Origin: Pomacea canaliculata
Lineage: Eukaryota > Mollusca > Gastropoda > Architaenioglossa > Ampullariidae
NCBI RefSeq assembly: GCF_003073045.1
Contig: NC_037600.1
Location: forward strand, 11,148,758-11,212,757
Direction of reading: 5' to 3'
DNA length: 64,000 nucleotides
Positions 27,915 through 63,600 of this stretch are shown in pieces. Positions within the stretch are counted from its first letter, which is position 1. Each line of letters begins with the position of its first letter. The position numbers were made by a program, and so were the translations under genes. Under the pieces are notes generated by a model. That model did not search any database and was not told the origin of the DNA. It saw nothing but the letters and a program-made list of their open reading frames with translations.

Positions 27915-29081
27915 ATGGCTGAGCCACACGAAAGAGAGTGTGCTGTGTGCACAGAAGAATTCACGACTCCAAAGATTCTACCCTGTGGTCATCTCCTGTG
28001 TCGAGAATGTATCATTTCCTGGATGGATTCCAAACGTGATGCCGGGTGTCCGTCTGTGTAGATGTCCTATAGTAGAGGCTAGTCAGATGGAATTCGTCGA
28101 GCACTGTTTGACGCCTGCGACGACTTTGTGTGGAAGCGCTGGGTGGAGAGCGCCTCGGTGGCTGAGTAAAGATCACGCTTTTGTTGTGTGTGTGAGACGT
28201 CAGGGCGGTACTTCATCTGTATAGCAGTGTCAGGTTGCATGTTGTGTTCTTGCGTGTATCAAGGTCATAAAAAGACTTTCATGAGTGTGCAGTACGATGT
28301 GGAGAGTGGTCAGCACTGTGACAGCCTGAAACGTCTGGCTGCCAGCCGCCTGCACTGTGTAAGGTGTGCGGACACGCGACAAACACGCGAGTCTTTGCCG
28401 CGAGCACCGCCTCGGCTGTCTGCTTAGGCCTGTTAAGACTAACAAAACACCAGTATGTCCAGGAAACAAACTATGCTTGACAATGAAATCATAAGTCAGT
28501 CAAATTTCACTGACGCAAGACTAACGAAGATTCTGGTATAGAAAAAAAAAATAAAAAAAACAAAAAAAAAAAAAAAAAGAGAAAGGGCGGGAGCAGAAGC
28601 TAGGCAGGCTATAGGTCTAGGTTACGTCACGTCTACAGGAATTGATGTCAGCGACAAGAATAAAAAAAACCCAAGACTTGGCGGCAGGTGGAGCAAGACA
28701 TGTGACCGTCTTCACAAAACACACACCGCGCTGGTGGAAGATGTTCGTAATCAAGTTGAAGGAAAACAGTCGCACGTCACATCTGCAAAATTAGGAATTC
28801 TTTACGTGACGTCAAGACTGACCTAGGCAAACGTCTAGGTAAGGTGACTTCACATCCAAACACCTTTTGACACAGCGGCGGCAGTGTCACGCACGTCCTG
28901 CACTGATACACATGACACGTCTCTGAGCAGGACGAGTCAAGCAGCCTTGACGCTCAGCGCCTGAGCTTGCTAAGAAGAGGTGTGGGTGAAGCCCTTGTCA
29001 AGTGTGGAGTGTTCTCAAGAAGTTCTGACAGTGATACAAGACGACCTCATGATGTTGAAGCAGCAGAAAACAGAGTCAGAG
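27915..29081 (+). pseudogene. Copy 6 RING/B-box exon with dense indels
   Basis: Compared with the exon at 58478, most differences are single-base insertions or deletions in otherwise near-identical stretches: a T inserted in TGTCCGTCTGTG at about 28052, a changed AGAGGCTAGTCAG at 28075, and extra bases around 28135-28160, 28200 and 28345. There is an A-run expansion at 28541-28578. Zinc-ligand codons of both B-boxes can be recognised piecewise (GCCGCGAGCACCGCCTCGGC). Substitutions are comparatively few. This pattern is unusual for ordinary neutral decay. Confidence 0.75.
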
Positions 29082-32000
29082 GTAAAATTTTGTCATTTTC
29101 GATTGTTTATGATTTTTTAGGATTTTTTGTAGCATGAAAACAAGTTTCTTGTTTGCTAGTCGTCTTTCTCTTCTTAAGGAGCTTTTTTTTCTTCTCTTTT
29201 ATAAGCAACTAGTGACAAAGCGAAAATGTAGTGTATATATGTGTGAGTGAAAGAGAGATAACGAGAGAGAGAAAACACGTTTGCCATATATCTGTGTTAT
29301 CTATTCCCGCTGGATTTGAACCACATCGGGGTGCATACGTTTAACAAGCAGGTCATCGAATCTTTAAATCATCTTAAAATACATTATGAAAACAGTCTGG
29401 TCATGTGATATGTTTCCAGGAAATGTATTATTTTAGGAAGCATTGTAATAGATTCAAAGTATTGTATTTTTGCTTTTGATACCTAACACATACAACCGAA
29501 CGCGCGCACACACGATCTAAACATATGCCAGTTTGGAAGAAAAAGTTTAAGAAGACGCTAAGTATCTACACAGCAGCACTAAATACTTACCCATTTCCTG
29601 TTCTTACAGGGGTCCAAGTAAACAGAGGAAATTAGACTGTTATCAACATCCTGTTGTGACTGTTGTTTAGAGCTTCAAATAAAATGTCAGGACTAACACT
29701 GTAACTAGCAAACCTCTCATCACAAAAGTGCATATACAAACTCCTTACATAAAAACCTAAATACACAGACATAGTCTCTTGTAGTTTTTTGTATTTATTT
29801 CAGAATGCAAGATTTATGAAGCCATTAAGCCCAGAAATTTGCAGTAAAGTCATCTACTAACCGTTAAATGTATTTTTCTATGACAACATCGCCAGTAATT
29901 CTGCAAACAAATATAAACGTTTATGTATGGTATGTTATGATTTAATGTACGGGAAGTGGACTCTTACGGACACAGGACTTTCTTAAGAGTATGACTGCAA
30001 ATCTATAACAAAAATCTATAAAATACAACTCATAACACTAATAATAAAACATTTTAGGTATTACAATACAGTATCGTAATAATTTATGTTTATTTACTTA
30101 TTTATTATTAATTATTTTAAAACATTATAGCTGTTCACTTTAGATCTGTTAATAATTTTTATGGACAAAAAATTATTTTGTACAGTTGGTCGCACAGCCA
30201 CCAGTCCTTGTGTTCCACGACAACTGCGGAAACAACATTCGTCTGACGAACGGTAACAGGACCGCGGTGAAGATAGATTTGCAGGCCTACAATGACGGGG
30301 TGATCGGGTCACGTGACCCTATGTTGGGGAACGTCTTGTATGAAGTAAGATATTTGACTAAAACTATGATGAGGAAAACGATGATGATTATCATGATGAT
30401 TGTACTGTTATTAATAAATCAGGCTTTAAAATTAAATTTTCTGTTATTCACGTTTTTTTCTTTTACAGTCTACAGACACAAACACAAAAAAAAATCATTG
30501 TTAATAATTTTGTTTCCATTTTTTTCAAGACCGTTGATACAAGTTGAAAGCTTACTGAGGACGGATTGAGTAGTCTCAATACATTCTTTGTCTGGTCCCG
30601 ATTGTAGCTTTACTGAGAGATTGACATCCTTTAGTGAAAGTAGTCATCCTAATCAGCTGTCACAGCTTGACATGTCATGACACTGGGATGTTGACGCAGG
30701 TCAGAGTGGACGCAGTAACAGATGTGTACAACTATCTAGCATTGGGTGTGACAAGAATTTCTCCTGCACACCTCCTTGTGCCAGAGTGGATTAGATACAT
30801 GAAAGACTCCGTTATGATCGCGCCCGGTTTGGTCTTCTACCACAAAAAACGTGTAAGTCTTCGTGTCTCTGAGTGCAGATGGCTTGTGGTGTGGTCTTCG
30901 TGGAAGAGATAAAGCTGAGTATACACTTTACTATTTAACTCTTGATACAGCAAAGGCGTAATTTGAAGTCCTGCATTGATTCTTTCTTTTTCTAAATGAG
31001 CAGGTAAAACTTTATTAAAAATTAATTACAAAATTTAAATTAAAATCTGTGCCTACTGTAAATACAAGTCTACAAACATCCAAATATTTAGAATGAAGCC
31101 AATAAGAGAGACTTTAGACGTATGTGTATATGTTGACTTAGACAGGTAAGGTAGGGTAAGATATTTAGGAGGTTTTATTTTTTTAACAGTAAATTTTATC
31201 AATTGTGGGTAAAAGAATGAAAGTGAGGTAATAGCCAAGATTTTTTAGAAATGTTATTTGAAGAACGAGTACCCCGTTTAAAGTAATTCAACTAAGGGTT
31301 TGACTGACCTAAATAAATCAGACCTTAGTCGTAAATCAAACACTTGTTTCTGTACATAAAGTCACGATAAAATAAAACCACCCTGATCATACCTAACATT
31401 TTTCGAAAGGTTTAAGCATTTATTATTATCGTACGCTGTTACAAAAAAAATATTTCTGGAAAATTGCGTGCTTAAGGTAATGACAGAAGTCAAGCCGGGG
31501 TGATCACTCCACGCCCAATATTTTATTAATAAGATAAAGTGCCAGGTATTTATATGTAGGTGCCGTTACCGCTCGCAGAAGGTCTCAGGAAACTTGAAGT
31601 CGGGAGTCGAGTCGGGGTACTGGTGACCTCATCCAACGACCTTCACCTCTACATCAACGGACAGGACCAGGGTGTTGCAGCAGAAAATGTTACACAACCC
31701 TGGTTTGCTGTCTTTGATATTTACGATACAGTTAGTAAGGTAAGAGATAAGGTTAATACAAACACCACAGTGTTCACAGCACACGAAGAAAACTTTCAGT
31801 GAAGCCTCTCTGTTGGTCAGGGAGTAGCGACAGTTACGCCGCCTTTTAGTGGAATCTCAATATTATTTGATATAAACGAGCCTCAGATGACAGCTCGAGT
31901 ACTTCCGCCTGCTGAAACTGGTAGTGGGGTAGAACCTTTGTAATATTACGGTACGGTTCTTATGTCGACTGCAACGTAGATGGAATGATAAATCGTCTTC

Positions 32001-32503: not shown

Positions 32504-32519
32504 CGAATATCAGAGGAGA

Positions 32520-33689: not shown

Positions 33690-33730
<41 letters not shown>

Positions 33731-35740: not shown

Positions 35741-35743
35741 AAC

Positions 35744-36284: not shown

Positions 36285-36560
36285 TTCGTAACATCAGTAA
36301 CATAGACTCAAAGATGGCTCAGCCAAAAGAAAGACACCGTCCAGTGATTAACACTAAATCATTACTCTGATAATTATACTATTTTGTTATCTACTGTGTC
36401 GACAATGTGTCATTTCTCCGACGGATTCCAAACATAAAACCGGTTGTCCGCTGTGTAGGTGTCCTATCGGAGGGCAGTTAGATCGAGCTTCGTCCTATAC
36501 TCTTGACAACCTGCCGACAGATTTTCTTTTCATTAAAACCTTTGTCTTTCTTCGATTGTA
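36285..36560 (+). pseudogene. Older RING relic in the 5' intron of copy 7
   Basis: Mirror twin of 1338-1587: GTAACATAGACTCAAAGATG, TGTCGACAATGTGTCATTTC, GATTCCAAACATAAAACCGG, TGTCCGCTGTGTAGGTGTCC and CTGCCGACAGATTTTC are recognisable. The frame is lost. It lies between leader and coding exon and would be removed by splicing. Confidence 0.75.
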
Positions 36561-36727
36561 CTTCTCTTTTTCTTGGTTTATCACTCGAAAACACTTCTTC
36601 AAAAATACAGAAGTAATATTTGCTTAAATGTCTTTACACTAAATTTTATTTTACAGAAATAATCACTAGCCTAAAACTTCAAACCGAGCATTATGTTTGA
36701 ATGTTTTGTATCTTTAGAATATTCAAA

Positions 36728-37792
36728 ATGGCTGAGCCACAGGAAAGGGAGTGTGCTGTGTGCACGAATGACTTCACCACACCAAAGATTCTACCCTGTG
36801 GTCATCTCCTGTGTCGAGAATGTGTCATTACCTGGATGGACTCCAAAGCTGATGCCGGGTGTCCGCTGTGTAGATGTCCTATAGTTGAGCAGTCAGATAG
36901 AAGTTCGTCCGTCACTGTTGACGCCCTGCCGACAGACTTTGTGATGGAAGCGCTGGTGGAGAGCGCTCGTGTGCTGAGTAAAGATCACCTTTGTTGTGTG
37001 TGTGAGGACGTCAGGGCGGACTTCATCTGTATGCAGTGTCAGGACATGATGTGTTCAGCGTGTGCTAAAGTACACAAGAAGATGTCCATCAGCCGTAGTC
37101 ACGATGTGGAGAGTGTCAGCACTGTGACACCTGAACGTCTGGCTGCCAGCCGCCCTGCACTGTGTGCTGACCACGGCGACAAACAGGCGGACAGCTTTTG
37201 CTTCTGTCACCGACTCGTTGTCTGCAAATCCTGTAAGGTTCAGAAACACAGTGAATGTTTAAAAGTAAGCGATTTTGACTTTGAAATACATTCAGCTGAA
37301 AACTCACTTACCCACCTAACAAAGATTCTGGTAGAAGCGGAGCAGAAGCTAGAGCAGGTTATAGGTCAGGTGACGTCACGTCTACAGGAAGTTGATGTCA
37401 GTGAACAAGAAGACATGTCGCAAGTAGACAAGATATGTGAATGTCTTCAGACGCTGGTGGAAGATTTCCGTATGAGGTTGATGGAAAAGACTCGTACGTC
37501 ACATCTGCAAATCAGGAATTCATTACGTGACGTCAAGACTAACTTTAGCAACCGTCTAGGGAAGGTGACGTCACACAGACACATTGTGACGCGAGCCACG
37601 GCAGTGTCACCACGTCCTGCAGTGATACACATGACACAGGCTCTGACAGACAGGGTCAACAGCCTTGACCTTAGCTCTCATTTTGAAGATGTGTGGGTGA
37701 AGCCCTTGTTAAGTGCGAAATGGTGTTTAGAAGTTGTGGCACGGATAGAACAAGAGCTACTGAGGTTGGAGCAACTGAAAACGGAGACAAAG
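36728..37792 (+). CDS. Copy 7 exon 1: RING/B-box/coiled coil
   Basis: 355 codons, starting MAEPQERECAVCTNDF. C3HC4 RING at residues 9-48 (C9, C12, C24, H26, C29, C32, C45, C48). A B-box1-type cluster lies at about 89-125 (CCVCEDVRADFICMQC) and B-box2 at about 145-177 (CADHGDKQ ... CFCHRLVVCKSCKVQKH). A coiled coil spans about 190-265 (ILVEAEQKLEQVIGQV). A conserved stretch to the donor includes VTSHRHIVTRATAVSPRPAV. An upstream in-frame Met at 36701 lies before the acceptor and is not used in the spliced model. Donor: AAAG/GTACCC. Confidence 0.9.
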
Positions 37793-40700
37793 GTACCCAC
37801 TTTGTCAGATTGTAGTCTACTTGATAAACACAGGTTATCTATGAATAGTTATTGTACATTATTTAGCTGCGCACAGTAAAAGAAGAACCTAATCAAAGAG
37901 CAATTACTTGTGGCCAGTGAAGCAAGTTAATGATCTACTTAGGTCGATTATTTGTGATGTTATCTATCTCCGAGCAATTACCTTTTAGTGTAACGGGATG
38001 AAAGTGTAAAAAAAAACTATAGTAAACAAAACCAGTAAACAACATCTTTATTTTAATGTGGAAACTCGCCAACTAACGAATATCATATAAAGCCTCTTTA
38101 TAAACTGTGAATCAAATTTGAGATCTCAATAATAAAATGTTTCTTGATGCTCTTTGTCCTTTACTAGACTTATTTACCAAGCTCCTCGCAACAATTGAAC
38201 GAGGCTATGAAAGCAGGCCAGGTAAATAATAATTTTATCAACATGTTTGGAATTATGTATGTTTATAATATACATAAACAGTTTTAAAATTTATTTAAAT
38301 TCTTTCCCTCTAAATTACTGGCTCCAGCAGCTCTACCAGTAAAACGTAAGTAAATAAACAGTTTGCAATGTAAATGTTTTCATTCTATGTGCATATACTT
38401 TTTAATGGAGGTCATCGCAATAATTAAAGCATTCAAAAACAGAACGCCTGTAATACCTTATCTGACATTCTACCTATAGTTCCATTTGAAAGAAAAAAAG
38501 ACACATTATTTGCCATTTAATTTGAGAATTAGTTTTTGGCTGCAGACACTTTCCAGGTTCAGAGCACATTAATGTGTGCAAGTTCTCCAAGCAGGTCATT
38601 GGAATATTTAACGCACCTTAATATACATCATATAGTTTTGCTACCTTTGAAACTAACATTATTTTGATTAAGGATTATGTCGGTTCAGAAAATATTATTT
38701 TAGTAAAGAGGGTTCTCGGCATTTTACCGTAATCCCTATAATCACCAATTTTTCGTCTGTGTGTGTGTGTGTGTGCTAGTACGCGAACCCATGCGTGCGT
38801 GCGTGTATCATACAGAGGCATTAATTATGTAAAACATATAATTAAATATCAGAACTGACACTGTAAATAGTAAAATGTCGATCACAAAGGTGCCTATCCT
38901 AATTTATGTTATATAAACACCTGAAACACTTTTTATTTTACAAAAAACAACAGTTTCTCTTAGACCAAATCAGTTGTCTTTAAAGTTATTATAATAAGAG
39001 ACATGTATATATAATATTTCATATAAAGCTTCATTTCATTGATGGCGTATATCAATGTATTGATCTGTTCCGAAATGGATGGTCTGTATTTTTATTACTA
39101 GCTTTTTCTTAAGCCAGTGGTGATGGTGAGATGATTGAAAAACTCAAAGAAGACATTTTAACTTTTTATTATTGTTGTTGAAGATAGATTAACTCTAACT
39201 AATCTAACTTGTTGTTGCCCTCTATAAGATGTCCAGCAATACAAGTGTGAACATAACCAGTCTTGAAGACACAAAAGAAGTTGCCAAACAAACAGCACGT
39301 CACTGCTATTCCGAAAACAAAGCTAGTTCGGGATCGGATGCATTTGATAGTAGGCGTCGTTCCGGAAATTGTGCAGCAGTTGGTAAAACCAATAATAATA
39401 CAAAAGAAGAACAAGAGTTTAGAAATGAAAGGGATGATACCTTTCAGTGTGCGATTTTAAGTAAAAAGGAGAGAGGGTGTAATGTCTGCAGGCAGCTTCC
39501 AGAAAGCCATCACTGGAGTGACCATGATACTAAGGTTTACAAAGAAGGCTACCCTAACAAAAAGGACAATCTTAAATTAAATCACAATTTGAAATTTTAC
39601 CTGGGTATACTGTCTTCAGTACCAGATGGCGATTTTATTGATAACATCCATAAAAAGTGGTGGGGTGACCATGATCTCTTGGAGCGCCACAAAGGCTATA
39701 TTCATTGGTTATTTCCAATTCGAGAAAGTGGTAACAACAGGCAGGCCCAGGAGCTGCAGATGCATGAGACAAAGGCAATACAAAAAGATAAAAGGGCTTC
39801 AGAACGTTTCTTAAAGTCCTACGAGATGATGCTGGATTTTTATGGCATGAAGCTAGTAGACGGCAATAATGGACAAGTTCAGCGTTCGGAGAAATGGAAA
39901 GAGCGATTTCACTTTCTGAATCACTCAACGCACAACTATCTCCGCATCACACGTATCCTAAAGTGTCTTGGAGAAATGGGACTGGAACATTTTAAAATTC
40001 CATTGATACGTTTTATTCTTAATGAAGCCATATATAAAGGCACACTTGATCGCACACTAGACACCTGCCTTAATTACTGGGTTGGAACTTTGCGGAAGGA
40101 TGAAGATAGGCAAGAGATGGAAAAATACACCAAACAGTTGTTCCACAAGAAGGACAATCACAGTTAACTTAAATGTGGTTGTAATTTTTAAATGAGATAG
40201 TATTATTTTGCAAGAGATATGCTTTGCCACTGATTGTACATGATTGTGATATTTTTATGTTTTAGTGTAGATAATAATAATGGTAGTTATTTGTAAAGGA
40301 ACAATTGGATTCCTATATTTTCCCATGCCAAGTTCATGTAGAGGAAATACTATTTGAAAATATGTTGCCTAAAATACCTTTGCAATGATTAGATGAAGTG
40401 AAGATAAAGATGTTGCAGGATGACCTTAACTAACTTAACTCTGGCAAGGTTGACTAATAATTGTCAACAACTACAATATAAAGAACTATTCTTCAATTAG
40501 AGTGACAGAGATATCTGAGAGGCTGTAAATTTGCATCTTCTATGTGGTCTATGCCAGACTTCAAGTGAACTGTTAATTGTGTCATTCCCAATTAGGAATG
40601 CCGAGGACAGTTCCTAAACATTTTCAGGACAGTAACTATGCTTGTGATTTGCTAAACTTAAATTTATCTGCAGCTTTGGGCTTCATTCTGGATACAGGGG

Positions 40701-43700: not shown

Positions 43701-46692
43701 TAATGTGTGATATGATTTAATGTATGGGAAGTGGACTCTTACAGACACAAAACTTTCCGAAGTGTATGATTGTAGATCTCAGCTGAAAAAACAATTATCA
43801 AATACAACTTATAACACTAATACCAGAACATTTTTAGTTAATACTATAGTATAATACTATAGTATACTATTGATCTGTTAATAATTTTCATGGACAAGAG
43901 AATATTATTTACAGTTGAACCCACAGCCACCAGTCCTTGTGTTCCACGACAACTGCGGAACCAACATTCGTCTGACGAACGGTAACAGGACCGCGGAGAG
44001 GACAGAGCTGAATACGATCGATGACGGGGTGGTTGTGTCACGTGACCCTATGTTAGCGAACGTCTTGTATGAAGTAAGATATTTGACTAAAACTATGATG
44101 ATGACAACGATTATCATTACAATGATTATTAGTACTGTTTTTAATAAATCGGCCTTCAGAATAAAAATTACTTTTATTTACTTTTCTTTCTTTTACAGGG
44201 TACAGACGCAAACAAAAAAATCATTTTGAATTATTTGGGTTCCATTTTCTTAAAATCGTTACTATAAGTTGATGACAGCTTACTTTGGACGGATTGAGTA
44301 GTCTCAATACATTTTTTCTCTTTTCACGCTTGTGGCTTTACTGAGAGATTGACATCATTTAGTGCAAATAGTCATCTTAATCAGCTGTCACAGCTTGACA
44401 TGTCATGACACTGGGATGTTGACGCAGGTCAGAGTGGACGCAGGATCAAGTGTGTACAACTATCTATCACTGGGTGTGACAAGAATTTCTCCTGCACGCC
44501 TCACTGTGACACTGTGGTCTACAGACCTGCAAGACTCCGCTATCATCATGCCCTGTTGGGTCTACCACCAGGGAGAAAGTGTAAGTCTTCATGTCTGTGA
44601 GTGCAGATGGCTTGTGGTTTGGTCTTGGTGTAAGAGATGAATCTGTGTGTTATTCACTTATATTTACTTTTTTAGTACACAAAGCATGCTTGAAGGTTTT
44701 GATGGATTTTCTTTTCTTTTCCAATGAAGAAGTAATTCTTAGGGAGAAATGTTATTCCCAAGTTAAAATTAAAATCTTTACCTGCTGTGAATAAAAACCT
44801 ACAGTTATCTAAATATGTAGAGACTTAGACGGATCCGTTTATGTTGACTTTGGTCAGATAGGATAAGTTATTTAGGAGGTTTGATTTTTTTGGACAGTAA
44901 ATTTTATAAAATTGTGGATAAAACAATGGAAGACTTCATTTGTAAAAATGTTTTCTGAAGCCGAGTAAAACCCGTTTGGAGAAATTGAACTAAAGCTTTT
45001 ACTGACCTAAATAAATCAGAACCTAGTCGTTAAACAAAATCTTTATTTGTACATCAAGTGACGGTAAAATGAAATCACCCTGCTCATACCTAACATTTTT
45101 CAGAAAGTTTCAAGCATTTTTTCTCGTACTGTTACAAAAAAATATTTGTCAAAAAGTGCGTGTTAGAGTTAAAGACGGAGGTCAAGGTGGGGGGCTCACT
45201 CCACGCCCAATATTTTATTAATAAGATAAAAGTATCAGGTATTTATATGTAGGCGCCGTTACCGCTCGCAAGTGAACTCAGGAGACTTGAAGTCGGGAGT
45301 CGAGTCGGGGTACTGGTGACGTCATCCAACGACCTTCACCTCTACATCAACGGACAGGACCAGGGCGTTGCAGCACACAATGTTACACAACCTTGGTTTG
45401 CTGTCTTTGATATTGGCAGTTTAGTTACTAAGGTAAGAGACACAGGTTATCACAAATACCACAGTCATAGAGGCAGACACTGACACTGACAGAAGAAAAC
45501 AAAGAAAGATCAGTGGGTGTCTTAGTGTCAAGTGGAATTTTTTTTTAACTTGATTAGCTTCATTTGTTGTTGTCATAGTTATTTTCTTTTACATTCATTT
45601 TCTCTTTTTTAAGCATGATCCTTAATGTATATATGCTTACAACCAAACACTGCATCTTAAAGATTAATTTTACTAAAGAACGTCATGCAGGGTTGAAAAC
45701 ATGAAAAATAAATACATAAACACATGAATCACTCCACTTCTATTTATATATTCTACACTATCGCACAGTTTTCTTAATTAACTAGGACCTCTTGGGTCAC
45801 AGTCTCTAAAGCTTGTTTTTTCTTTTTAAAACCAAGAAATTCCAATGTCCGATAATGGATATGGATCCGCTAATTGGCTTTCACAAACTATAAACTACTT
45901 TCACTCAAGATATCCGCCACGCGACCTTTCGAAAAGCAAAAGTAGCATCTGTGGGTCCCTAGGTTGTTAGACTAATCACAACACAGGAAGAAAATTATCC
46001 GTCAGTGGATCCTCTCGTTAGTCTGGGAGTAGCGACAGTTATCACCACCTCCGAGTAAAATCTCAATATTCTTTGAAACAAATGAGCCTCGGTTGGCAGC
46101 TCCAGTAGTTCCACCTGTTACAACTATGAGGGAGGTAAAACCTTTGTAATATTTGTAATATTTGTAATATTTCGTGCTGTTCTTCTTTCAACTTTGGGAC
46201 TTGTCCTGCATGTCGTTCCTTTATTTTTACCCATTGGCAAGGCAAGGAACTACATTCTTCCCGACTCGTTCCTTCACAAACTTCACACACTCTTTCTGCC
46301 CCACAGGCCTATTAGGGAATGCCTGAAATGAGTTTACAGTGAATACTAGTCTCCATACTAAACAATGTTTAGTTACCTGCAGTCACAACAACACACTACA
46401 CAATCGTAACCAGTCGAGTTCCTGACAAACACACTTTATATCACACAAAGGAGTTTGGAATTGCATGGGGAGACTATAACGGTCTCTTGAGCGGTGATAA
46501 CATGAAGGTGTCTAGAAAACTGCAGGTAAAGATAAATAAAGAGAAAGAGAAGACACTTGTCTTACCCATTGCATGGAGTTGGGGTACAGACTTTTTTTAT
46601 TTATTAAAGTTTACATTTGTACAATGTTTGTACCTGCTGCTCTGTTGTCTGTTTTACAGGTGACAGCGCTTCCTACATCTTTTAGAACATAA
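36728..46692 (+). CDS. TRIM-NHR copy 7: RING, B-box, coiled-coil, NHR E3 ligase
   Basis: Complete gene model, all junctions phase 0: exon 1 36728-37792; three 54-nt cassette exons 38168-38221, 42339-42392 and 42615-42668; NHR exons 43915-44073, 44428-44580, 45253-45432 and 46660-46692. With all cassettes it encodes about 583 residues. RING E3s transfer ubiquitin from an E2. NHR domains in Neuralized bind short motifs in Delta-type ligands and other partners, so the NHR here probably selects substrate. The first intron after exon 1 holds an intronless OGFr-like gene on the same strand. The kappaB/TATA promoter lies at 35744. Inclusion of the cassettes is inferred from their splice sites only. 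Confidence 0.75.
38168..38221 (+). CDS. Copy 7 cassette exon a (54 nt)
   Basis: Acceptor TCCTTTACTAG, donor CAG/GTAAATAA, phase 0, 18 codons: TYLPSSSQQLNEAMKAGQ. It is in the same relative place and of the same length as cassettes b and c. It extends the linker between coiled coil and NHR. Confidence 0.55.
39229..40167 (+). CDS. OGFr-like protein, intronless, inside a copy 7 intron
   Basis: 312-codon uninterrupted frame. Residues about 121-290 match the conserved N-terminal domain of opioid growth factor receptor proteins (OGFr_N). Hallmarks are LKFYLGILSSVPDGDFIDNI, WWGDHDLLERHKGYIHWLFP, FLKSYEMMLDFYGMKL, WKERFHFLNHSTHNYLRITR and GLEHFKIPLIRFILNEA. The N-terminal 100 residues are polar with a CNVC motif. 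The known vertebrate proteins are longer (several hundred residues, with C-terminal repeats). The single-exon form within another gene's intron suggests a retrocopy. AATAAA occurs at 41912-41917, but no poly(A) tail or target duplication is clear. The frame being intact suggests recent origin or selection. Biochemical function is unknown. Confidence 0.85.
   Translation: MSSNTSVNITSLEDTKEVAKQTARHCYSENKASSGSDAFDSRRRSGNCAAVGKTNNNTKEEQEFRNERDDTFQCAILSKKERGCNVCRQLPESHHWSDHDTKVYKEGYPNKKDNLKLNHNLKFYLGILSSVPDGDFIDNIHKKWWGDHDLLERHKGYIHWLFPIRESGNNRQAQELQMHETKAIQKDKRASERFLKSYEMMLDFYGMKLVDGNNGQVQRSEKWKERFHFLNHSTHNYLRITRILKCLGEMGLEHFKIPLIRFILNEAIYKGTLDRTLDTCLNYWVGTLRKDEDRQEMEKYTKQLFHKKDNHS
40168..42020 (+). 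other. Probable 3' UTR and flank of the OGFr-like gene
   Basis: No coding frame. The sequence is unlike the rest of the TRIM-NHR introns, which resume at about 42028. A polyadenylation hexamer AATAAA lies at 41912-41917. 41341-41370 and 41399-41430 hold a short duplicated word (GTATAAAATGTGAATTCTTA-like). Confidence 0.4.
42339..42668 (+). CDS. Copy 7 cassette exons b and c (54 nt each)
   Basis: Cassette b (42339-42392, acceptor GTTAATAG, donor AAG/GTAAATAA) encodes SSFSSCSFKVEKTDKQIK. Cassette c (42615-42668, acceptor GTTACTAG, donor CAG/GTAACA) encodes PYLPSDSSKKKKFVKKSQ, whose KKKK/VKK resembles a basic nuclear signal. Both are 18 codons in phase 0, like cassette a. The preceding introns share CTCTCTGT-type words, so the three arose by local duplication. 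Whether they are used together or alternatively cannot be told. Confidence 0.55.
43915..46692 (+). CDS. Copy 7 NHR exons N1-N4
   Basis: N1 43915-44073 (53 codons): PPVLVFHDNCGTNIRLTNGN, ending NVLYE. N2 44428-44580 (51 codons): VRVDAGSSVYNYLSLGVTRI, ending HQGES. N3 45253-45432 (60 codons): LEVGSRVGVLVTSSNDLHLY, INGQDQGVAA, QPWFAVFDIG. N4 46660-46692: VTALPTSFRT-stop. Joined in phase 0, they follow the Neuralized repeat pattern: H.....i.L....tA.R at the start, a central GVT, G.l.v.vNG..qG, then a PWF.vfD....V end. The whole repeat is about 170 residues, slightly longer than a standard NHR of about 155. Confidence 0.8.
46140..46173. repeat. Nine-base tandem repeat (TTTGTAATA, about 3 copies)
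   Basis: CTTTGTAATATTTGTAATAT and on: three units in the intron before N4. The paralogous site in copy 6 (about 31937-31950) has a single unit, so this is a local expansion. Confidence 0.7.
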
Positions 46693-49112: not shown

Positions 49113-50125
49113 ATCTATCTAATCCTTTTCGTGCATTAGGTTGCACATAAGGCCTTAACCAGAGTCCGCCACTGATGTCGATCGGCTGAAACCTGCTCTA
49201 GGTTACCCCATGTCCAGCCCTTTCTTTTCATCTCCCTTTCCGTTGTTCTTCTCCAAGTTTTCTTCGGCCGTCTGGAGTCCATCGTAGGGCGACTCTGGAG
49301 AGGTCTGCTGTCTGCTGGTGGAGCACATGTCCAATCCATCGGTTTCAGCTCTTCGGTGGAGTTCTTCGTTGGTGATGGTATTTGGCCAAAAGATGTTAGG
49401 TAGGCGCCTGAGGCATCTGTTTCGGAAGATGTCAAGCTTGTTACTGATGGCTTTGGTTTGACAGACTTTCTCTCGTCTATCGTCTTCCATGTCTCTTCTC
49501 TGATCCACAGTTTTTTCTTCTTCCGTTGGAAGCCCAGTATTTTCTTTCCTGTTTCCTGTAAGACTCGATTGAAGTCGTCTAAGGTCATCTCTTGTTGGTC
49601 TCCTAGAGCCTGGGATCTGTTCTTTACTTCCATAACAAAGGCTCGTTTGGTGGCAGGATCTTTCAGTTTGCCGGAGTCCACTCTCTGCTCACGTGCCTAT
49701 TTTTCTCGCGATCGAAGTAGCTTCAGAGAAACTGTGGCTATCACAAGAGTGTGGTCACCAGCAACATCTGCTCCTCTGTAGGCTCTAACATCTTGAAGTG
49801 AGCTCCTCCATCTTCGGTTGATGATGACATGGTCTATCTGGTTCTTTGTGATCCCATCTGGTGATGTCCGCGTTGCCTTGTGGATGTCTTTGTGTTGGAA
49901 GAGTGTGCCTCCAATCAGTAGGTTGTTTTCTTCACAAAAGTCTGCCAGTCTCTCTCCGTTGTCATTGATGGTATTAATTCCATGCTTGCCCATGACATGC
50001 TCCCTGCAGGTGTTGTCACTTCCCACCTTGGCATTGAGATCGCCGATGATGAGCAACATATCGTAGGCTCGAATGGTACAGGATGCTCCACAATAGCCCA
50101 CAATGCCAAAACAGTTGAACATGTC
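49113..50125 (-). mobile_element. RTE/craniofacial-development-2-like LINE, reverse transcriptase deleted
   Basis: The minus-strand frame 50122-49697 is the C-terminal half of an AP-endonuclease domain: IIGDLNAKVGSDNTC, NDNGERLADFCEENNLLIGG, and DGITKNQIDHVIINRRWRSS with GADVAGDHTLVIA. The next frame (49681-49136) begins with the linker (FQRKKKKLWIREETWKTIDE) and jumps to the element's extreme C-terminus (KKTWRRTTEREMKRKGWTWG, then DRHQWRTLVKALCAT-stop). The whole polymerase is missing. A TAGA/GATA tail follows at the 3' end. It cannot move by itself. Confidence 0.8.
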
Positions 50126-50325
50126 AGTAAATGAAGTGCAGAATCCTATATATTAAAAACCTGCGCATCAAGATTACCAATGAAATGAGGCAACAACAAA
50201 CAGTGAATAACAATCCATAAGAAAGGCGAAAGGCACAACAAGCATCACAGATGAGTAGGAGAAACTAAAACTCGACATACGTTCATAGATGAGACAAAAC
50301 GACAGAGAGCTGGTCCCCTCCAGCC

Positions 50326-52245: not shown

Positions 52246-53334
52246 ATGGCGGCAACGTCACTTCAGCCACACGAACGAGAGTGTGCCGTGTGCACGAATG
52301 AATTCACGACACCAAAGATTCTACCCTGTGGTCATCTCCTGTGTCGAGAATGTGTCATTTCCTGGATGGATTCCAAAGCTGATGCCAGCTGTCCACTGTG
52401 TAGATGTCCTATAGTACAGCCCACAGCACAGGTAGATCGAAGTTCAACTGATGTTGCCGACGCCCTGCCAACAGATTTCGTGACAGAAGCGCTTTTGGAG
52501 AGCGCTCGCGTGCTGGCTAAGGATCACATTTGCTGTGGCTGTGCAGACGTCACGGCTGGCTTCATCTGTATGCAGTGCCTCGATATGATGTGTCAGTCTT
52601 GTTGTATGATTCACCGAAAATTTTCTGCGACCTGCAGTCACGATGTGGAGAGTGTCAGAACTGTGACACCTGAACGTCTGGCTGCCAGCCGCCCTGCACT
52701 GTGTGCTGACCACGGCGACAAACACGCGGAGATCGTTTGCGTCGATCACGGCCTCGCCGTCTGCGCATCCTGCACTGTCACGAGACACCGGAAGTGTAAA
52801 GCAGTGAGAGAGCTCCAAACGGAAATGACGTCATCCAAGAGCACAATCGCTATTCTTACATGCATGATCGACAACGCTGAGCTAAATCTCGAGGAAGCCA
52901 TTGCTAAGCTTGACTCTCGTCTGCAGGAAGTTGGTGACAACGAACAAAACGACATGGCGCAGGTGGACATACATTGCCAACGTCTTCACCATGTGGTTGA
53001 CGATTTTTGCAACACACTAAAGGAAAGAACCCATGAATCACATTCACAACTAAGGAAATCTCTCCGGGATGCCAAGAATGTCCTGGCCGAGCAGCAAGTG
53101 AAGGTGACGTCACACAAGCGCATGCTGACGCGAGCCACAACCGTCGCTCCGAGACCCGGGCTGATATTCGCGACTAAGGCTCTGACAGACAGGGTCAACT
53201 ACCTGGACATCAATGTCAAGCTAGCGGGCGATGTTCTAAGGAATCCTTCCACAAATGCTGGATTTTGCGAAAGTGTCGTTAGGCGGATCGAGAAAGAACT
53301 ACATGGAATTATAGACCCGAGAGCTAAGAGTCAG
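52246..53334 (+). CDS. Copy 10 exon 1: RING/B-box/coiled coil
   Basis: Starts MAATSLQPHERECAVCTNEF, three residues longer at the N-terminus than the other copies. The C3HC4 RING runs from CAVC to CPLC (residues about 12-51). B-box1 includes CCGCADVTAGFICMQC, and B-box2 includes CADHGDKHAEIVCVDH then VCASCTVTRHRKC. The coiled coil includes IDNAELNLEEAIAKLDSRLQ. Donor TCAG/GTGAAG after 53334; reading on gives only a GAT/GTG-rich tail. Blocks of near identity with copies 7 and 11 alternate with clearly diverged coiled-coil sequence. Confidence 0.88.
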
Positions 53335-56300
53335 GTGAAGCATTTTCTTTTACTTTTTGATGATAATGGTGGTGGAGGTTGTGTTGTGATTGTGGATGAT
53401 GATGATGATGAAGCAAACAGAAAACCAACAATACTACTAAAAATAAAAATGAAAAGCAAAGAGTTCAATAGTCTAATAATCTGTGATTCCAGTTCTAAAA
53501 TATTCAATATCCATTAGCAAAAATGTTGCAAGAAATTCTTTTTAGGCGGGCTGGACTCTAAATTACAAAAAAAAAATAAATAAAAAAAAAATGTTGAGAC
53601 TTTAAGCCAGACAAAACCTAATTCAATAATGTTTAATTAAGACAAAATCCTCTCTTAACCCGTGACTGACGAATGTCTAGGCAAAGTCCGCAAGTGGGGC
53701 TGTGATGCTGACCAGAAGTAAGACAGAGACGGGAAAAGGATATGAACTCTACATTTCTCAGCTTGGTGAAGTCACATCCTGTGAACCTCTGGAGCAGAAT
53801 GTCTTGTATCAGGTGATGATGATGATGGGGGTAGATTAGGAAGAGAAGGATTTAAGTGACAATTCTGAATGATTTTTACCTCTTGATAAGATATACTTGT
53901 ACGAAAAAGAGTAGATATGGATGAACCCATTGTGCACAGACGAGCTTAGCTAGGTCACTGATTAAGACAACACAAATCACTGATAACAAAATTCATTCGT
54001 CCATGAGCTACTTATCTCCGATCTTACTTTTACAGCCGCAGGGTGTGCCATTAAACATAAGCAGTGTTTGTGTGTGTGTGTCGAACTATTTAGCTGCGGA
54101 TGGACCAAAGTAAATGGAAATCCAGACAAGCAGGAAGTGTGCAGTACGGAGTGTCAGAAGAGCGCCCAAAGGGATGTAACTTGCAAACGGTAAACGTATT
54201 TCATCACGTGACATAAACGTCAAGTTAAATAACAATTTGTATATTCTGGTCTGTCTGCTTCCACTCTTGAGATGACTTATATTTAGCAGCTGACAACTAT
54301 CTATGTTTGGATGTTTGTCATTTTTCAAATGTAAATTCCAACAACTGTCACAATTGTGAAAAAAAAAAATTAAAAGTTTGACATGAAAAAATACGATGAT
54401 GGGATTTGAATGTGTTTTGTTTCAATCCACTAATGAAGAATGATATCATAATAAATATATTTACCAGCTTTGCATAAATTTTTTACAGGAATTCAGCCAT
54501 TCCAGATGGAAAGAGATAAATTATGAAGGAAGCGTGGCTGGATTAATGATCGACTCCTATAATTACCTTCACTTTTACCTCGATGGCAGTCTGATAGACA
54601 CAGAGAAAATACCAGTTTCAAGACCGTGTTACGCCCTGTTTAAACTCAACACTCGCATGAAGGTAGACAATAGAAGTATAATCTTTTGTCTGTCAATATG
54701 TAAATTTGGTATGCGTAATTAATTTCACAAGAAATGTTAAATATTGTTTACGTGTAGTAATTGTTGACAGGTAAGAATTGTTCTTTCTAACTCCTAAGTC
54801 CTAGCAAGTTTAAAATTAGAAATACCCGACAAAGAACTATCAATTGAAAAAAAAAATCATGTTCCAAGTGTTCCCAGGGTAAAGAAATAATTAAAAGATG
54901 TAATCAGGGCTTCTGCTAAGGCTAAATTCTTTGGGGTCCCAGGGACCCCTTCCTCAGATTTCTAAGGGGTCCCAGGCTAACTCTAAGGGGTCCCTTTACA
55001 ATGTAGAAAAAAATCAACAAATCAACTACTTTGTTCAACTGCCTTTCAGGCACACAAGCACTGTAATGTCTAGTCAGAAACGGCGAGATTTCTGTGCCAT
55101 GATGTCTGTGCAAGCATCTGTGATGAGCTTATGCTCACTGTACTTGGGGTGCTCACTTTCTTTCCGTTTCTAAGGCAATGAATTTAACCACGATGTCAAC
55201 AACATCTTTGAAATAAGTTAAATAAGCTGCACCTGGTGGTGGATGGGAGAGGTATGAAAGTATGAATGCCTCAGATGCCATCATTCAAGAGGAAGTTCTC
55301 GACCGTAACCTGGCAATTAATAAGTTAGTGAGAACTAGAGTTGTAAGAAACATCAACGAGAGGTGGCACATTGATAGAAGTATAAAAGTTGGGATAAAAA
55401 AACCTGGCGCAAGGTAGAAAAGCGAACCTCGGCAAGACGTGGCGCCCACAGCTCAGTGACATTCAGTGGATTCTGAATGTTACGTAAATCATGAGATGAT
55501 CGAAGGTGTTTGAAACTGTACAAATAAATTAAACGAGTTTCAGTTGCAAACTATATTTAGCAATAAAACGTCTTTCTCAGCCGACTAGTACTTGATGTAG
55601 GGTCTAAGAAAAGTGAGGCGAAACGGCTTCTATCTGAACATACGTCTTTCCTTGCATTCTTTCTACTCATAAGAGGGATAATAATATTTAATATTTTCAG
55701 TTCATTCTCCTCCTGATGACTGACCTAATGTACACTCGGTTTGAGTCCAGTCTTTGAGCTTTTACAAATGGCCAACAATTCACGACTGCAACATAGTGCC
55801 CCCACTGTGTCTTTCTTCGCTTATCTAACCCGACCATATGCGATCAATTCAGTTGTTTTTATGTTTGTGTCATTTGCGCTGTTCATTCTTCTCTCCTTTT
55901 TAAATTCTAGTTTTTTTGTTTGTGGAGAATACAGTCAGTCCTAACCCGACAGAATGTTCAGACAGAAGTCGTTTCGATCAACGCTCAGACCCTACCGCAA
56001 GTACTGGGTGAGGGAGACGATTTATGCCATGCTAGTCGGCAGTGCCTGTGATGTCCACCCCGCCTTTTGTCCGGGTAGTAATTGAAGACGACTGGCCGAT
56101 GGCAGTCCGCACCTCGTGTACTCCTACCTTCCCTTGCACGGGCGATACCACTCACTTCCCCCCGGTGGGAAGATATCGGGCCTTTAATGGAACTCTTCTA
56201 GGTAAGGGAAAACAGACTCAGTGCAAGGGAAGTTACTCTCGCCTTGCAGCAGACGACAACAATAGGTTGGTCTACGATGTCGGACACTACACTTACCCAA

Positions 56301-56689: not shown

Positions 56690-56699
56690 AGCTGAAGGA

Positions 56700-58273: not shown

Positions 58274-58477
58274 GTGACTAATCAATCTGTATTTCTACTA
58301 ATAAACGTCAGCAAGGATATCGAAGTGTGTAGAGCAAAGAACCGTTTCACGGAAACTGCAGTGTGACACAAGTAAGTCAGCAATTGTAAAATACAAAATT
58401 CACTGCTGCAAGAATTCAGTTTGATTTACAGTTTCCATTAGTGGTCGAAAAATTCTATAGGAAACTTAAGCTTAAGG

Positions 58478-59545
58478 ATGGCTCAGTCCCACGAAAGAGA
58501 GTGTGCTGTGTGCACAGAAGAATTCACGACACCAAAGATTCTACCCTGTGGTCATCTCCTGTGTCGAGAATGTGTCATTTCCTGGATGGATTCCAAACCT
58601 GATGCCGGGTGTCCGCTGTGTAGATGTCCTATAGTAGAGCAGTCAGATGGAAGTTCGTCCGACACTGTTGACGCCCTGCCGACAGACTTTGTGATGGAAG
58701 CGCTGGTGGAGAGCGCTCGTGTGCTGAGTAAAGATCACCTTTGTTGTGTGTGTGAGGACGTCAGGGCGGACTTCATCTGTATGCAGTGTCTTGACATGAT
58801 GTGTACAACATGTACAAAGGCTCATAAAAAACTATCAGTGAGCCGCAGTCACGATGTGAAGAGTGTCAGCACTGTGACACCTGAACGTCTGGCTGCCAGC
58901 CGCCCTGCACTGTGTGCTGACCACGGCGACAAACACGCGGAGTTCTTCTGCCGCGAGCACCGCCTCGCTGTCTGCTCAGCCTGTAAGGCTAACAAACACA
59001 AAGTATGTCCAGAAATTAACTCTCTTGACGATGAAATACAGTTAGCCCAAAACTGGGTGAGAAACTTGACAGAGGTTCTGGTGAAAGCGGAGCAGAATCT
59101 AGAGCAGGCTATAGGTCAGGTGACGTCAAGTCTACAGGAAGTTGATGTCAGCGAACATGAAGACATGGCGCAGGTAGACAAGACATGTAACCGTCTTCAG
59201 AAGCTGGTGGAAGATTTCCGTAACAAGTTGAAGGAAAACACTCGCACGTCACATCTCAAAATCAGGAATTCATTACGTGACGTCAAGACTGTCCTCAGCA
59301 AACATCTCGGAAAGGTGACGTCACACAAACACATTGCGACGCGAACCACGGCAGTGTCACCACGTCCTGCAATGATACACATGACACATGCTGTGACAGA
59401 CAGGGTCAAGAGCCTGGACCTCAGCACTGACTTGCAAGAAGAGGCGTGGACGAAGACCTTGTTAAGTCCAGAATATTGTGAAGAAGTTGTGAGACAGATA
59501 GAAGACGAGCTTTTGATGTTGGAGCAGCAGACAACGGACACAAAG
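58478..59545 (+). CDS. Copy 11 exon 1: RING/B-box/coiled coil
   Basis: Starts MAQSHERECAVCTEEFTTPK. RING ligands are C9, C12, C24, H26, C29, C32, C45 and C48. A B-box1-type cluster lies at C89/C92, C101/C104, C109/C112, H116 and H125. B-box2 is at C146, H149, C158, H161, C166, C169 and H174. A coiled coil spans about 185-265 (VLVKAEQNLEQAIGQV). A conserved region to residue 356 includes TSHKHIATRTTAVSPRPAMI. Donor AAAG/GTAAGAG. Reading past it adds 13 codons to a stop, a possible NHR-less short form. Confidence 0.9.
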
Positions 59546-62500
59546 GTAAGAGTGTTATTTTTACCACCTCATTATTTTTTTCATTGATTATAAGACTAAT
59601 GCAATTTTTCTTTCTTTCTGATCATTCTTCTTTTCCCGATGATCTTTTCTTTTTGCTTCCTGTTATCAGTATCCATGAAGCGAGCTAGCGACTAATGAAT
59701 CAAAAGAAAGTGTAAGTTTTTGAAATCGCATTTTGTCTTATTATATATAGACTGCAGAAATGTGTTATTAAAGAGGGAGAATGTGTGTGTGCGTGTTTGT
59801 TTCTTTGTGTCGGCGATTGATACTGATATCTACCTTGCCGTTTCGCTTTTGGCAATTTGTTAGTTGTCTGAAAGGAAGAACAAGGGTAATGAATGTAACA
59901 ACAAGAAATCTCTGGGACTTAAAACACCAGCATACGTCCAAAGACACATAAAGCTGATAAAACTGCTTAACATGCCTTAAGAAGAGACTTGCAATATGTT
60001 TCATTGATAAGATTACTATGCAACCCCAGTAGCAAAAAGGCGTCCGCTGTGTGGCCAGTAGGCGAGATCTGAGATGTTGTTTTCGATGAAATGATAAAAA
60101 TCTTACATTTTTGACAGGGTGGAGGACTTAGGAAAAGCCTGCTTCAACTCTGGAGCAGACATAGCAAAATGAAAGAGGTTAATTTTTTACACACTAGCAG
60201 ACTAAGCCACGACAGTGTAGAAAATCTTCTTTTTGTAATGCAAGGAAAAGGAGGACATGATGACAAACAATTTATTGGCAATTTCTGTTCTTTTTGCGCC
60301 GGGTGATTGTGGATTGCCTAACCATGCGAAGTGAAAAAAACGCAACTGCATCAAAGACCGAAATTACTTGTGTTGAAACTGAGCATCATCACTACTCACA
60401 TCGTGTGTTAGAAAGGCAATTGAGGACACTTTTGAAAAAAAAAACCCACTGGCCTTCAACTTTATAGAGACATGTGGCACGGTTCATGTTTAACTTTCCT
60501 TCAGATGCCATGCTACTATATAGGTGGCTGCACCCTAAGGTTAAGCTATCAATTGAAACGACAGTAATATTCTACCTGAGATTTCCTTTCTCATCCCTAC
60601 TTAAAGGAAAAGGACACAAAATTTGGTATTTAATATGAGAATTAGTTTTTGGATCCAAGCAAACACTTTACAGCAGCGGTTCTCAACCTGTGGGCGCCCC
60701 CCCGCGACGTGCTTACAAGGGAGGCGCGAAGGTGGTCATTTTTTTTAAGTTTCTTATACCGGTATTAGTGAAATTAGTTTACATTGCTGGCTAAGGGGGG
60801 GGGGGGCGGACGTACCTTTGACCGTCAGGGGGGCGTCACAAGTAAAAGGTTGAGAACCGCTGCTTTACAGGTTCAGAGAACATAAATGTGTGCCAATTCT
60901 CCAGGCAGGTCATGAGAATGTTCAATACACCTAAATATACATCACACAGATACGCGGCTATAAAAACTGACATTATATTAATTAGGGATTATGTCGGCTT
61001 CGTAAATGTTATTTTGACGGGGGTTCTAGGTTTTTCTTTAAGAATCTATCCAGCATTTTACCATAATCCCTATTATTACAATGTTTTGGCTTCTGTCTGT
61101 GTGTGTGTGTGTCTTAGAAATAGGAGGAAGAATTATGTAAAAATATCATTAAATGTCAGGACTAATATTAAAACTAGTAAAACCACTAGCACAGGTGTTT
61201 TCCCAACTTCTTACATATAAAGATAAACACACACTTAATTGTAGTTTGGTTAAAATCTTTTTAGAATGCATGTTTTCATGAAGTGCTTAAATTTGTAGTA
61301 AGATCGTCTGCCAAAGGTAAAATGTATTTCCCAAGATCACATCGCCAGTACAGTCTTCACACGAATGTAAAGGTTTGTGTGGTATGTTGTGATTTAATGT
61401 ATGGGAAGTTGATTCTTACAGACACAAGACATTCCTAAGAGTAGGATTACAGATCTTAACAGAGAAAACCACCCGTCTTATAAACTACAACTAATACAAA
61501 AACACTTAAATTATTAAATGTTACAATAATATTAGTGATGTAGATTATAGTTACTTAACTATGATGAAATAATAAATTTTAACTTCAAAAGAATCAACAT
61601 TATTTACAGTTCGCCGTGCAGCCACCAGTCCTTGTCTTCGACGAAAGCTGTGGGAAAAACATTAAACTGACGAACGATAACAGGACTGCGGAGAGGACGG
61701 TTGTGCATAGCTCCCGCGAAGCAGTGGTCGTGTCACGTGACACTATGGTGTCAAACGTCTTGTATGAAGTAAGATGTTAGGTTAGAACGATAGTGATGAC
61801 GATGAACATGACCAAGACAAAATACGACGACGACGACGATGAGGATGATGATGACTACGGGGATAATTATAATAATTATGATTACTAATATTATTATTAA
61901 AAAAAACTTCAAAATAGAAATTACTCTTATGCACTTTTTTCTTTTATAGTGCACAGACACAAACAAAATAATAACTTTGAATTATTATGGTTTTATTTTT
62001 TTAAATCGTTGACACAAGTTTAAGAAACGTATATTTACAACGGATTGAGTAGTCTCGATACATAGTATCTCTCTGTGGCCACACTTTTCGCTTTACTGAG
62101 AGATTGGCATCCTGTAATCCCCGTAGTAAGCCTAATCAACTGTCAAAGTTTGGTATGTCATGACACTATGATGTTGACGCAGGTCAGAGTGGATGAAACC
62201 TCATCTAAATACAGCGAGCTATATCTGGGAGTGACAGAACTTTCTCAGGCAAAGTTCGTTATAAAAAAGTCTGATGGAGACCTGGGAGACTCTGTTGTCG
62301 TCGCTCCCAGTGAGGTCTATTTCCAGGGAAATTGTGTGAGTTTTCATGGATCCAAGTCCTACAAATGGCTTGTGGTTTGGTCTACGTGTAAGATCTGAAG
62401 CAAATTATCATTCACTTCCTGTCACACTTGTATTTCAACAAAGCATTTTTAAATGATTTTTTTAAGATATCATATCCTTTACTAATCAGCTGGTAAAATT

Positions 62501-63600
62501 CAGTGACAAATATTATTTCCCAAAATAAGATTTAAAATTTCTTTGCCCACTTTAAATAAAAGCTTACAAACATCCCATTATAAAAAAAGAGGCAAACAAG
62601 AGAAACCTCAGTAACGGATGTGTAAATGTTGACGTAGACAGGGTGACAGCCAATAGGTGAGGTAGCATATGTTATTTAGGGGGCTATGAGTTTGATCTTT
62701 TTCACAGTAATTTTTATAAAAGCGTACCTCAAGAATGGAAATGGGGTATTTATAGGTAGATCTGTGGAAATGTTAACATTAAGCTGAGGTACACCCAGTT
62801 AGGAGAAAGAAATTCAACTAAGGCTTTAATTGACCTAAAGATATGATACCGTATTCGTAAATCAAGAGCTCGTTTTTTCTTTGCACGTGGTCATGATAAT
62901 ATCAAACCATCCTTGCCCCTACCAAATAATTTTGGAAAGGCATCTAGGATTTCTTTTTCTAATAGTACACAGTTGAATAATAGTTGAGGACATTTCAAGC
63001 TACAATTATGGTAGAGGGTACGCTAGGGTGCTCACTTTCCGTTCAATATTTTATTAAAAGGTAAAAGTAACAGGTATTTGTCTTCAGGTGTCGACCACGC
63101 TCGGAGAAGGTCTCGGGAGGCTTCAAGTCGGGAGTCGAGTTGGGGTACTTGTTGACTCATCTAATTACGTTCACCTCTACATCGATGGACAGCACCAGGG
63201 CGTTGTACCAGAACCTGTCACGCAACCCTGTTTTGCTGTTTTTGATGTTTGGAATACAGTGACTAAGGTGAGAGATACACGTACACACGTTACATTGCAC
63301 AGAGGAGTTTGGGATTGCATGGGGAGACTATAACGGTTTCTTGAACTGTAATAGCACGAAAATGTCCACAAACTGCAGTTCATAAATAATAAACAAAAAT
63401 CTTTTACCTACTTCCTGGTGCTGACGTGTTTTTTCGTAAATTGGACATTTTTACAAATTTGTGTTTGTTTTGTAAGTAAATCGTTAGGTTTAGTACCTGC
63501 TGTCCTATTGTCTGTTGAACAGGTTACAGCCCTTCCTACATCTAGGATGACATCAAGAATATTAGAGAAGAAGAAGGCTGAGACAGGCTTGTTTCGTTAA
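58478..63600 (+). CDS. TRIM-NHR copy 11: RING, B-box, coiled-coil, NHR E3 ligase
   Basis: Complete model, phase 0 throughout: exon 1 58478-59545 (356 codons); N1 61610-61768; N2 62183-62335; N3 63088-63267; N4 63523-63600. About 545 residues. N1 reads PPVLVFDESCGKNIKLTNDN. N2 reads KYSELYLGVTELSQAKFVI. N3 reads GSRVGVLVDSSNYVHLYIDG and QPCFAVFDVW. N4 has a longer, basic C-terminal tail (ILEKKKAETGLFR). A possible extra 60-nt exon (60119-60178, GGGLRKSLLQLWSRHSKMKE) has an AG acceptor but only a weak GTTAAT donor. A 189-bp hAT MITE lies in the intron before N1. The intact frame, splice sites and kappaB promoter make this the best candidate for a working member. Confidence 0.8.
60674..60862. 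mobile_element. hAT-type MITE with 8-bp target duplication
   Basis: 189 bp bounded by CAGCGGTTCTCAACCTGTGG and its near complement ending GGTTGAGAACCGCTG. The target duplication CTTTACAG lies at 60666-60673 and 60863-60870. The paralogous intron of copy 7 (about 38545-38565, ACACTTTCCAGGTTCAGAGC) shows the empty site. The interior has C-rich and G-rich runs that pair. No coding capacity. Confidence 0.95.
61610..63600 (+). CDS. Copy 11 NHR exons N1-N4
   Basis: N1 61610-61768 (acceptor TTTACAG, donor GAA/GTAAGA), N2 62183-62335 (acceptor GACGCAG, donor TGT/GTGAGT), N3 63088-63267 (acceptor TCTTCAG, donor AAG/GTGAGA), N4 63523-63600 (acceptor GAACAG). Lengths of 53, 51, 60 and 25 codons match copies 6 and 7 except for the longer N4. 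The acceptor of N2 lacks a pyrimidine tract in all copies, yet the 100 bases before it are strongly conserved. Confidence 0.8.

Follow-up and report, generated by a model that had tools for sequence, protein, structure and literature searches.

The stretch of Pomacea canaliculata DNA analysed here raises the question whether a TRIM-type front of RING, B-boxes and coiled coil (RBCC) and a Neuralized domain (NHR), which follow one another in several gene copies, belong to a single protein, and what a family of such proteins would do. The window, that is the whole stretch of 64,000 bp, is C11:11148758-11212757 (C11 being contig NC_037600.1) in a genome assembly of 440,159,624 bp in 24 contigs. 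We consider it probable that the copies encode predicted TRIM-type E3 ubiquitin ligases whose NHR loops would choose the target, with the effector conserved and partly homogenised and the recognition part diversified. The initial annotation had described the joined arrangement in four copies, numbered 6, 7, 10 and 11, which we take to be the exon-1 copies W27, W36, W52 and W58 (the annotated span begins at 27915).

Gene structure in the window

Genes of the family share one layout. Exon 1 encodes the RING, the B-boxes and a long coiled coil, and is followed by four phase-0 exons, N1, N2, N3 and N4, which together rebuild a full NHR. The tiny N4 contributes only 'VTALPTS…stop' and was located through conservation between copies of the segment behind N3. 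W36 and W58 have five exons each, all of them open, with lengths that are multiples of three and flanked by GT/AG:

36728..37792, + strand: W36 exon 1, with RING (residues 9-48), B-box 1, B-box 2 and coiled coil; phase-0 donor AAG|GTACCC
43915..44073, + strand: W36 N1, start of the NHR; acceptor TTTACAG, donor GAA|GTAAGA
44428..44580, + strand: W36 N2; donor |GTAAGT
45253..45432, + strand: W36 N3; donor AAG|GTAAGA
46660..46692, + strand: W36 N4, VTALPTSFRT and stop, end of the NHR and of the protein
58478..59545, + strand: W58 exon 1 (RBCC); donor AAG|GTAAGA
61610..61768, + strand: W58 N1
62183..62335, + strand: W58 N2
63088..63267, + strand: W58 N3
63523..63600, + strand: W58 N4, with 25 residues before the stop (10 in W36)

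The two other annotated copies are incomplete:

27915..29084, + strand: W27 broken exon 1
30186..30344, + strand: W27 N1, open
30700..30852, + strand: W27 N2, open
31560..31739, + strand: W27 N3, open; an N4-like VTALPTSRIA and stop starts at 32471
52246..53334, + strand: W52 exon 1, of a divergent class, 58% identical to W36; donor CAG|GTGAAG
about 53681-53812 and about 54094-54189, + strand: W52 weak N1-like and N2-like segments, placed by eye
54489..54662, + strand: W52 N3-like exon

The four-copy description thus held only in part. W36 and W58 agree with it fully, by their open spliced exons and their Pfam matches. W27 keeps open NHR exons with the family borders and an N4, behind a broken exon 1. 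W52 has an open exon 1 followed by strongly diverged NHR-like exons; its model joined by eye matches Neuralized below the Pfam cut-off (E = 0.0063), and N4 was not found behind these exons.

Domain content of the predicted proteins

Each spliced model, W36 and W58, has Pfam matches to RING, B-box and Neuralized; the Neuralized match covers positions 1-147 of the 149 in the profile. The initial annotation depended on a significant NHR match, and the Neuralized profile (PF07177) gave E-values of 3.1e-26 for W36 and 1.1e-19 for W58, together with 1.8e-26 for a gene on C2 (L031) and 6.7e-24 for an old paralog (L030). RING was matched in all four models (PF00097; 2.1e-9 in W36 and 7.1e-10 in W58). 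The B-box profile (PF00643) matched two stretches each in W36 (1.1e-6) and W58 (6.7e-9); it lies above the cut-off in W36, W58 and L031, and L030 has one stretch at 24.0 bits against a cut-off of 24.1. At an E-value threshold of 0.01, the Pfam search of these four full models returned no SPRY; a Pfam coiled-coil match is absent from W36. The eight C3HC4 residues of the RING and most B-box Cys/His residues, by our own ligand assignment, are invariant in all 16 exon-1 sequences. In an AF2 model of exon 1 (mean pLDDT 67.6, residues 72-142 below 50), residues 183-293 form a single helix of 111 residues. The top Foldseek match of this model is the RBCC of TRIM28 (5.4e-4), followed by other TRIMs; three matches reach E ≤0.001, and these E-values are modest.

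By sequence, the best solved NHR is 2e63 (KIAA1787, presumably NEURL4; E 1.8e-15), and the remaining four of the five matches are near-chance dehydrogenases. The NHR of the family is split over exons, and the fold was approached through a model of a single-exon NHR on C10 (L029) outside this TRIM-NHR family, with pLDDT 60. This model matched the NHR1 of Drosophila Neuralized first (3.8e-10), then 2yue and 2e63. Lower in the list, SPRY folds (among them B30.2 of MID2 and of TRIM67) are interspersed with bacterial glucanase folds. As modelled, the NHR fold is SPRY-like. The earlier proposal that NHR replaces SPRY is thereby refined: the replacement would be a swap between relatives. The predicted W36-type protein has its RING at the N-terminus and ends at the NHR, with no C-terminal RING behind it. 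Its domain content identifies it as a TRIM, and knowledge of that family suggests E3 ligase activity.

The C10 locus itself (L029, C10:7484001-7493500; C10:7478663) has, on one strand, an RBCC frame, the single-exon NHR (E 2.4e-38), a COR match and a weak, below-cut-off Roc-like P-loop. It is possibly a second, independent RBCC-NHR(-ROC-COR) gene, or these are mere neighbours. We dropped it as the ancestral TRIM-NHR gene, as its splice borders and phases fit poorly.

Predicted joining of exon 1 to the NHR exons

The splice sites suggest that exon 1 is spliced to N1. Of 21 open copies of exon 1, all but Am40 have an in-frame GT donor close to the exon end, and 18 of these 20 donors read AG|GT[AG]. 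Behind the donor, the distance to the first in-frame stop varies from 3 to 91 codons, so a conserved stop is missing from exon 1, and N1 begins without Met. Exon 1 and N1 make sense when they are joined. The gap between them is 341 bp in L030 and 6.1 kb in W36. Distances among copies in the coiled coil and in the NHR correlate (r 0.69, p 1.5e-4, 10 genes).

Family size and genomic spread

The genes form a tandemly amplified family, in zones on C11 and C2. A genome search with the exon-1 protein, in which 113 of 297 candidates were scored so that its counts are lower bounds, gave at least 114 matches. At least 81 stop-free exon-1 frames span at least 315 of the 361 residues (at least 60 on C11 and at least 21 on C2), and 33 of the 114 matches listed are partial or carry stops. 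The Neuralized search (150 of 181 candidates scored) gave at least 118 pieces, with 98 in the family zones and 20 at other NHR loci among the matches listed. Among these matches, 93 of the 98 family-zone pieces have a same-strand exon 1 no more than 15 kb upstream (median 2.6 kb, largest 9.1 kb), and none of the 20 pieces elsewhere does.

Eighteen units were taken forward and 16 were spliced; A15 and A93 were dropped (N1 interrupted, N3 partial). Outside the 18 units are copies with a broken exon 1 or a weak NHR (W27, W52, W11 and others). Complete, stop-free five-exon models were obtained for 11 of the 16: two in the window, seven in C11:10855001-11055000, one on C2 and the old paralog at C11:9.3 Mb. 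The remaining five have stops (Am0, A54), an unplaced N2 (Am33) or no N4 found (Am17, Am46). The five-exon layout is common to the C2 gene and to the old paralog, whose exon 1 is 35% identical. These spliced models bear out the claim of a multi-copy family in which a C-terminal NHR follows in phase behind a TRIM-type RBCC.

A few observations lie beside this count. The N1 donor of L030 (2136-2147, GAG|GCAGGC) is GC instead of GT. Dense B-box matches occupy C2:24.19-24.57 Mb, where both this exon 1 and the NHR are absent among the matches listed; this is perhaps another expanded B-box family. Clusters of NHR pieces at C2:37.275-37.289 Mb and C5:12.24 Mb, without exon 1 among the matches listed, are probably multi-NHR NEURL-type genes.

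Selection on the NHR and on the front half

We compared nonsynonymous (dN) and synonymous (dS) divergence in 45 pairs of ten array genes, taken from 13 sequences without A54, Am0 and Am33, with L030, L031 and Am55 excluded from the pairs. The medians for exon 1 were dN 0.106 and dS 0.197, and dN exceeded dS in none of the 45 pairs. For the NHR the medians were 0.315 and 0.376, and dN exceeded dS in 14 of the 45. The site models left out L030 and L031 and added the NHR of W27 and Am0. One-ratio dN/dS (omega) was 0.42 in RING-B-box and 0.64 in the coiled coil (11 sequences each) and 1.34 in the NHR (13 sequences), so that the NHR behaves as the diversifying module. Twice the log-likelihood difference between M8 and M8a was 11.9 for RING-B-box, 5.2 for the coiled coil and 135.6-135.8 for the NHR, where about 30% of codons are placed near omega 3.8.

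The signal is spread over the NHR exons, each of which passes on its own tree with a statistic of 30.6 for N1 (omega 0.90), 63.4 for N2 (1.87) and 27.0 for N3 (1.11). The largest statistic in 24 null simulations without positive selection was 6.02. Several NHR motifs stay fixed. On the L029 model, 30 of 39 selected sites lie outside strands, compared with 57 of 110 other sites (p 0.005).

A frozen tract inside exon 1

Exon 1 contains a short region that hardly varies at the nucleotide level:

37097..37186, + strand: tract of about 90 bp with a nucleotide-frozen 61-bp core, from the end of B-box 1 to the start of B-box 2, in W36 exon 1

Residues 57-93 are nearly identical among the array copies on C11, silent sites included, though not in comparison with Am55, L031 and the divergent class. 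Within the tract, all 16 four-fold sites and all 29 third positions are identical between W36 and the C2 gene L031; outside it the two agree at 39 of 71 and 174 of 325. Throughout the expanded family the tract of about 90 bp is frozen, with Am40 departing more in the alignment, and the old paralog L030 is without it. The 61-bp core occurs at 58 places in the genome without mismatch and at 76 within three mismatches; a reversed control gave 0. Of these 76 places, 72 lie within a same-strand exon-1 match, two within 300 bp of one and two (C11:11346510, 11417186) have no listed match. The stop-carrying copies at L032 and L033 have kept the core with at most one mismatch, and their other 45-bp bins have 0.60-1.00 identity.

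The persistence of the tract in broken copies argues against protein-level selection alone. We prefer short-tract conversion as the explanation, with a nucleotide-level function as its rival; recent decay of the broken copies is also possible. An RNA hairpin was dropped as the cause, with z-scores of -0.37 and -0.76 against shuffles. The near-identity of residues 57-93 and the frozen tract together suggest homogenisation of exon 1.

Other features of the window

Two more family copies are recognisable in the window:

67..1137, - strand: exon 1 of a further copy; an NHR N3 match lies beyond the window at C11:11147188-11147355 (-)
11211..11378, + strand: N3 of the decayed copy W11; N4-like sequence follows after 262 bp, and upstream there is just an exon-1 fragment at 10538-10648

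Several more exon-1 fragments are scattered in the window. Partial RING-exon fragments at 36388-36531 and 1333-1476 lie about 200 bp 5' of exon-1 copies, and some other copies have similar ones; it looks as if an older duplicate had preceded the gene. The region of the W36 intron between exon 1 and N1 holds an open frame of 319 residues (39208-40167). Minus-strand open frames at 49136-50152 read like what we take to be a retroelement endonuclease.

Proposed mechanism and alternative explanations

The protein would dimerise through the 111-residue helix, its NHR loops would bind varied targets, and the RING would recruit a ubiquitin-conjugating enzyme (E2), leading to ubiquitination of whatever the NHR holds. 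The targets may be fast-changing, for example pathogen or transposon proteins, which would suit the selection pattern, as has been proposed for the finTRIMs of fish. Partial homogenisation of exon 1 between copies would keep the effector uniform as recognition diversifies. The target class and an immune role are suggested by family knowledge and by the selection pattern.

Several results weigh against this interpretation, and they bear on two other explanations. Exon 1 and the NHR exons might be parts of different transcripts, separate or alternative, one giving an RBCC-only product and the other an NHR product with another first exon, and might only have been duplicated together. Five of the 98 family-zone NHR pieces are unlinked, two of them being window copies with a decayed exon 1, and 22 of the 81 full exon-1 copies have no NHR piece at E 1e-3 among the matches listed. 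The downstream control also finds an exon 1 for 79 of the 98 NHR pieces, as head-to-tail arrays would, so linkage alone is a weak argument and the order E1-N1-N2-N3 inside the units is a better one. The donors and acceptors were chosen in frame by score, and their presence is partly by construction. On C4 (L035, C4:16064501-16068500, reverse strand about 2059-2510), an intronless NHR copy with small deletions has N1, N2 and N3 joined as expected; its similarity begins at the N1 border, with both exon 1 and the upstream intron unmatched, and no clear N4 was seen in it. Truncation of a retrocopy at its 5' end could explain this, as could a source transcript with a different first exon. The long exon 1-N1 introns of some copies, such as that of W36, would also suit separate transcripts. 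With Am55 kept (11 genes), the correlation of coiled coil and NHR falls to r 0.41 (p 0.011), and RING-B-box distances do not follow the NHR (r 0.05, p 0.33). Since the NHR distances agree with the coiled coil and not with RING-B-box, we read the latter as homogenisation of the front part and not as separate genes. The in-frame donors with stops scattered behind them, the lack of a start codon in N1 and the short gap in L030 argue against separate transcripts, which we regard as improbable.

Alternatively, there may be one gene whose NHR drifts under relaxed constraint, or whose dN/dS is inflated by conversion, instead of diversifying selection. The sequences compared are paralogs and not orthologs, and conversion between paralogs, of which exon 1 bears signs, can inflate site tests; the share of partial or stop-carrying exon-1 matches points the same way. 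Our M8 code is home-made and was checked only by M0 likelihoods that equal those of IQ-TREE, and simulation statistics down to -6.3 reflect optimiser noise. The enrichment outside strands rests on the low-confidence L029 model of another NHR (39 of the 45 selected sites). However, omega of the whole NHR exceeds the neutral value of 1, every NHR exon passes separately, the null simulations peak far below 135.8, and the NHR motifs stay fixed as the excess sits mostly outside strands. Relaxation or inflation is thus unlikely, though somewhat less so than separate transcripts. A role in development or Notch signalling like that of Neuralized, with an incidental copy number, would find its precedent in the Drosophila Neuralized NHR, which binds Notch ligands. 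A developmental regulator would not be expected in about 80 open copies whose NHR changes fast, and the RING stands at the N-terminus of a TRIM core, so that we give this role very little credence.

A more far-reaching form of the interpretation, in which selection diversifies NHR loops on a common effector, appears doubtful to us as a whole. In it the roughly 80 predicted TRIM-NHR ligases would form a molluscan germline repertoire for pathogen or transposon recognition, and the frozen tract would anchor genome-wide inter-chromosomal short-tract conversion or serve as a shared small-RNA handle. If true, a fast-evolving E3 repertoire like the finTRIMs would have arisen independently in a mollusc, with a different SPRY-fold domain on the TRIM core, and the NHR, known from Notch signalling, would have found a new use as a surface for variable recognition. 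One could then measure, side by side in a single genome, how the effector is homogenised and how recognition diversifies. The frozen tract makes a clear-cut example either of very short cross-chromosome conversion tracts or of nucleotide-level constraint in a coding exon.

Comparison with known systems

Neuralized and NEURL proteins share the NHR domain with this family. In Neuralized the NHR precedes a C-terminal RING, and no B-box or coiled coil is known from it, whereas here RING, B-box and coiled coil come before one NHR. Because its RING is N-terminal, the predicted protein is not a Neuralized-type ligase. The described TRIM classes have the same order of RING, B-boxes, coiled coil and a C-terminal domain, and the word 'Neuralized' is absent from the main text of that class survey (PMC3503706). 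A survey of molluscan immune genes in Aplysia lists 22 TRIMs in its supplement and, in the parts available, names NHR only in the legend of a figure on TIR/COR-domain proteins (PMC9334734). SPRY, PRY and Neuralized repeats have been classed together, in general terms, as SPRY-like and linked to E3 effectors (PMC8195603, from the portion consulted). Among the open-licence papers listed, we found no description of TRIM-NHR proteins; the architecture may already be present in automatic annotations elsewhere.

The nearest working analogues are two vertebrate sets, as far as the accessible parts of the two reports describe them. The finTRIMs of teleost fish are likewise a large duplicated TRIM set, whose C-terminal SPRY-fold domain is positively selected, mostly in loops, with a weaker signal in RING-B-box; they differ in being vertebrate and in ending in B30.2 instead of NHR (PMC2657112). 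The zebrafish NLR-B30.2 genes also show positive selection in the recognition domain, but on a NACHT core instead of a RING and with B30.2 instead of NHR, and a short frozen tract is not mentioned in the sections seen (PMC4852459). By analogy, the TRIM-NHR family would work like the finTRIMs and the NLR-B30.2 genes and be a member of neither.

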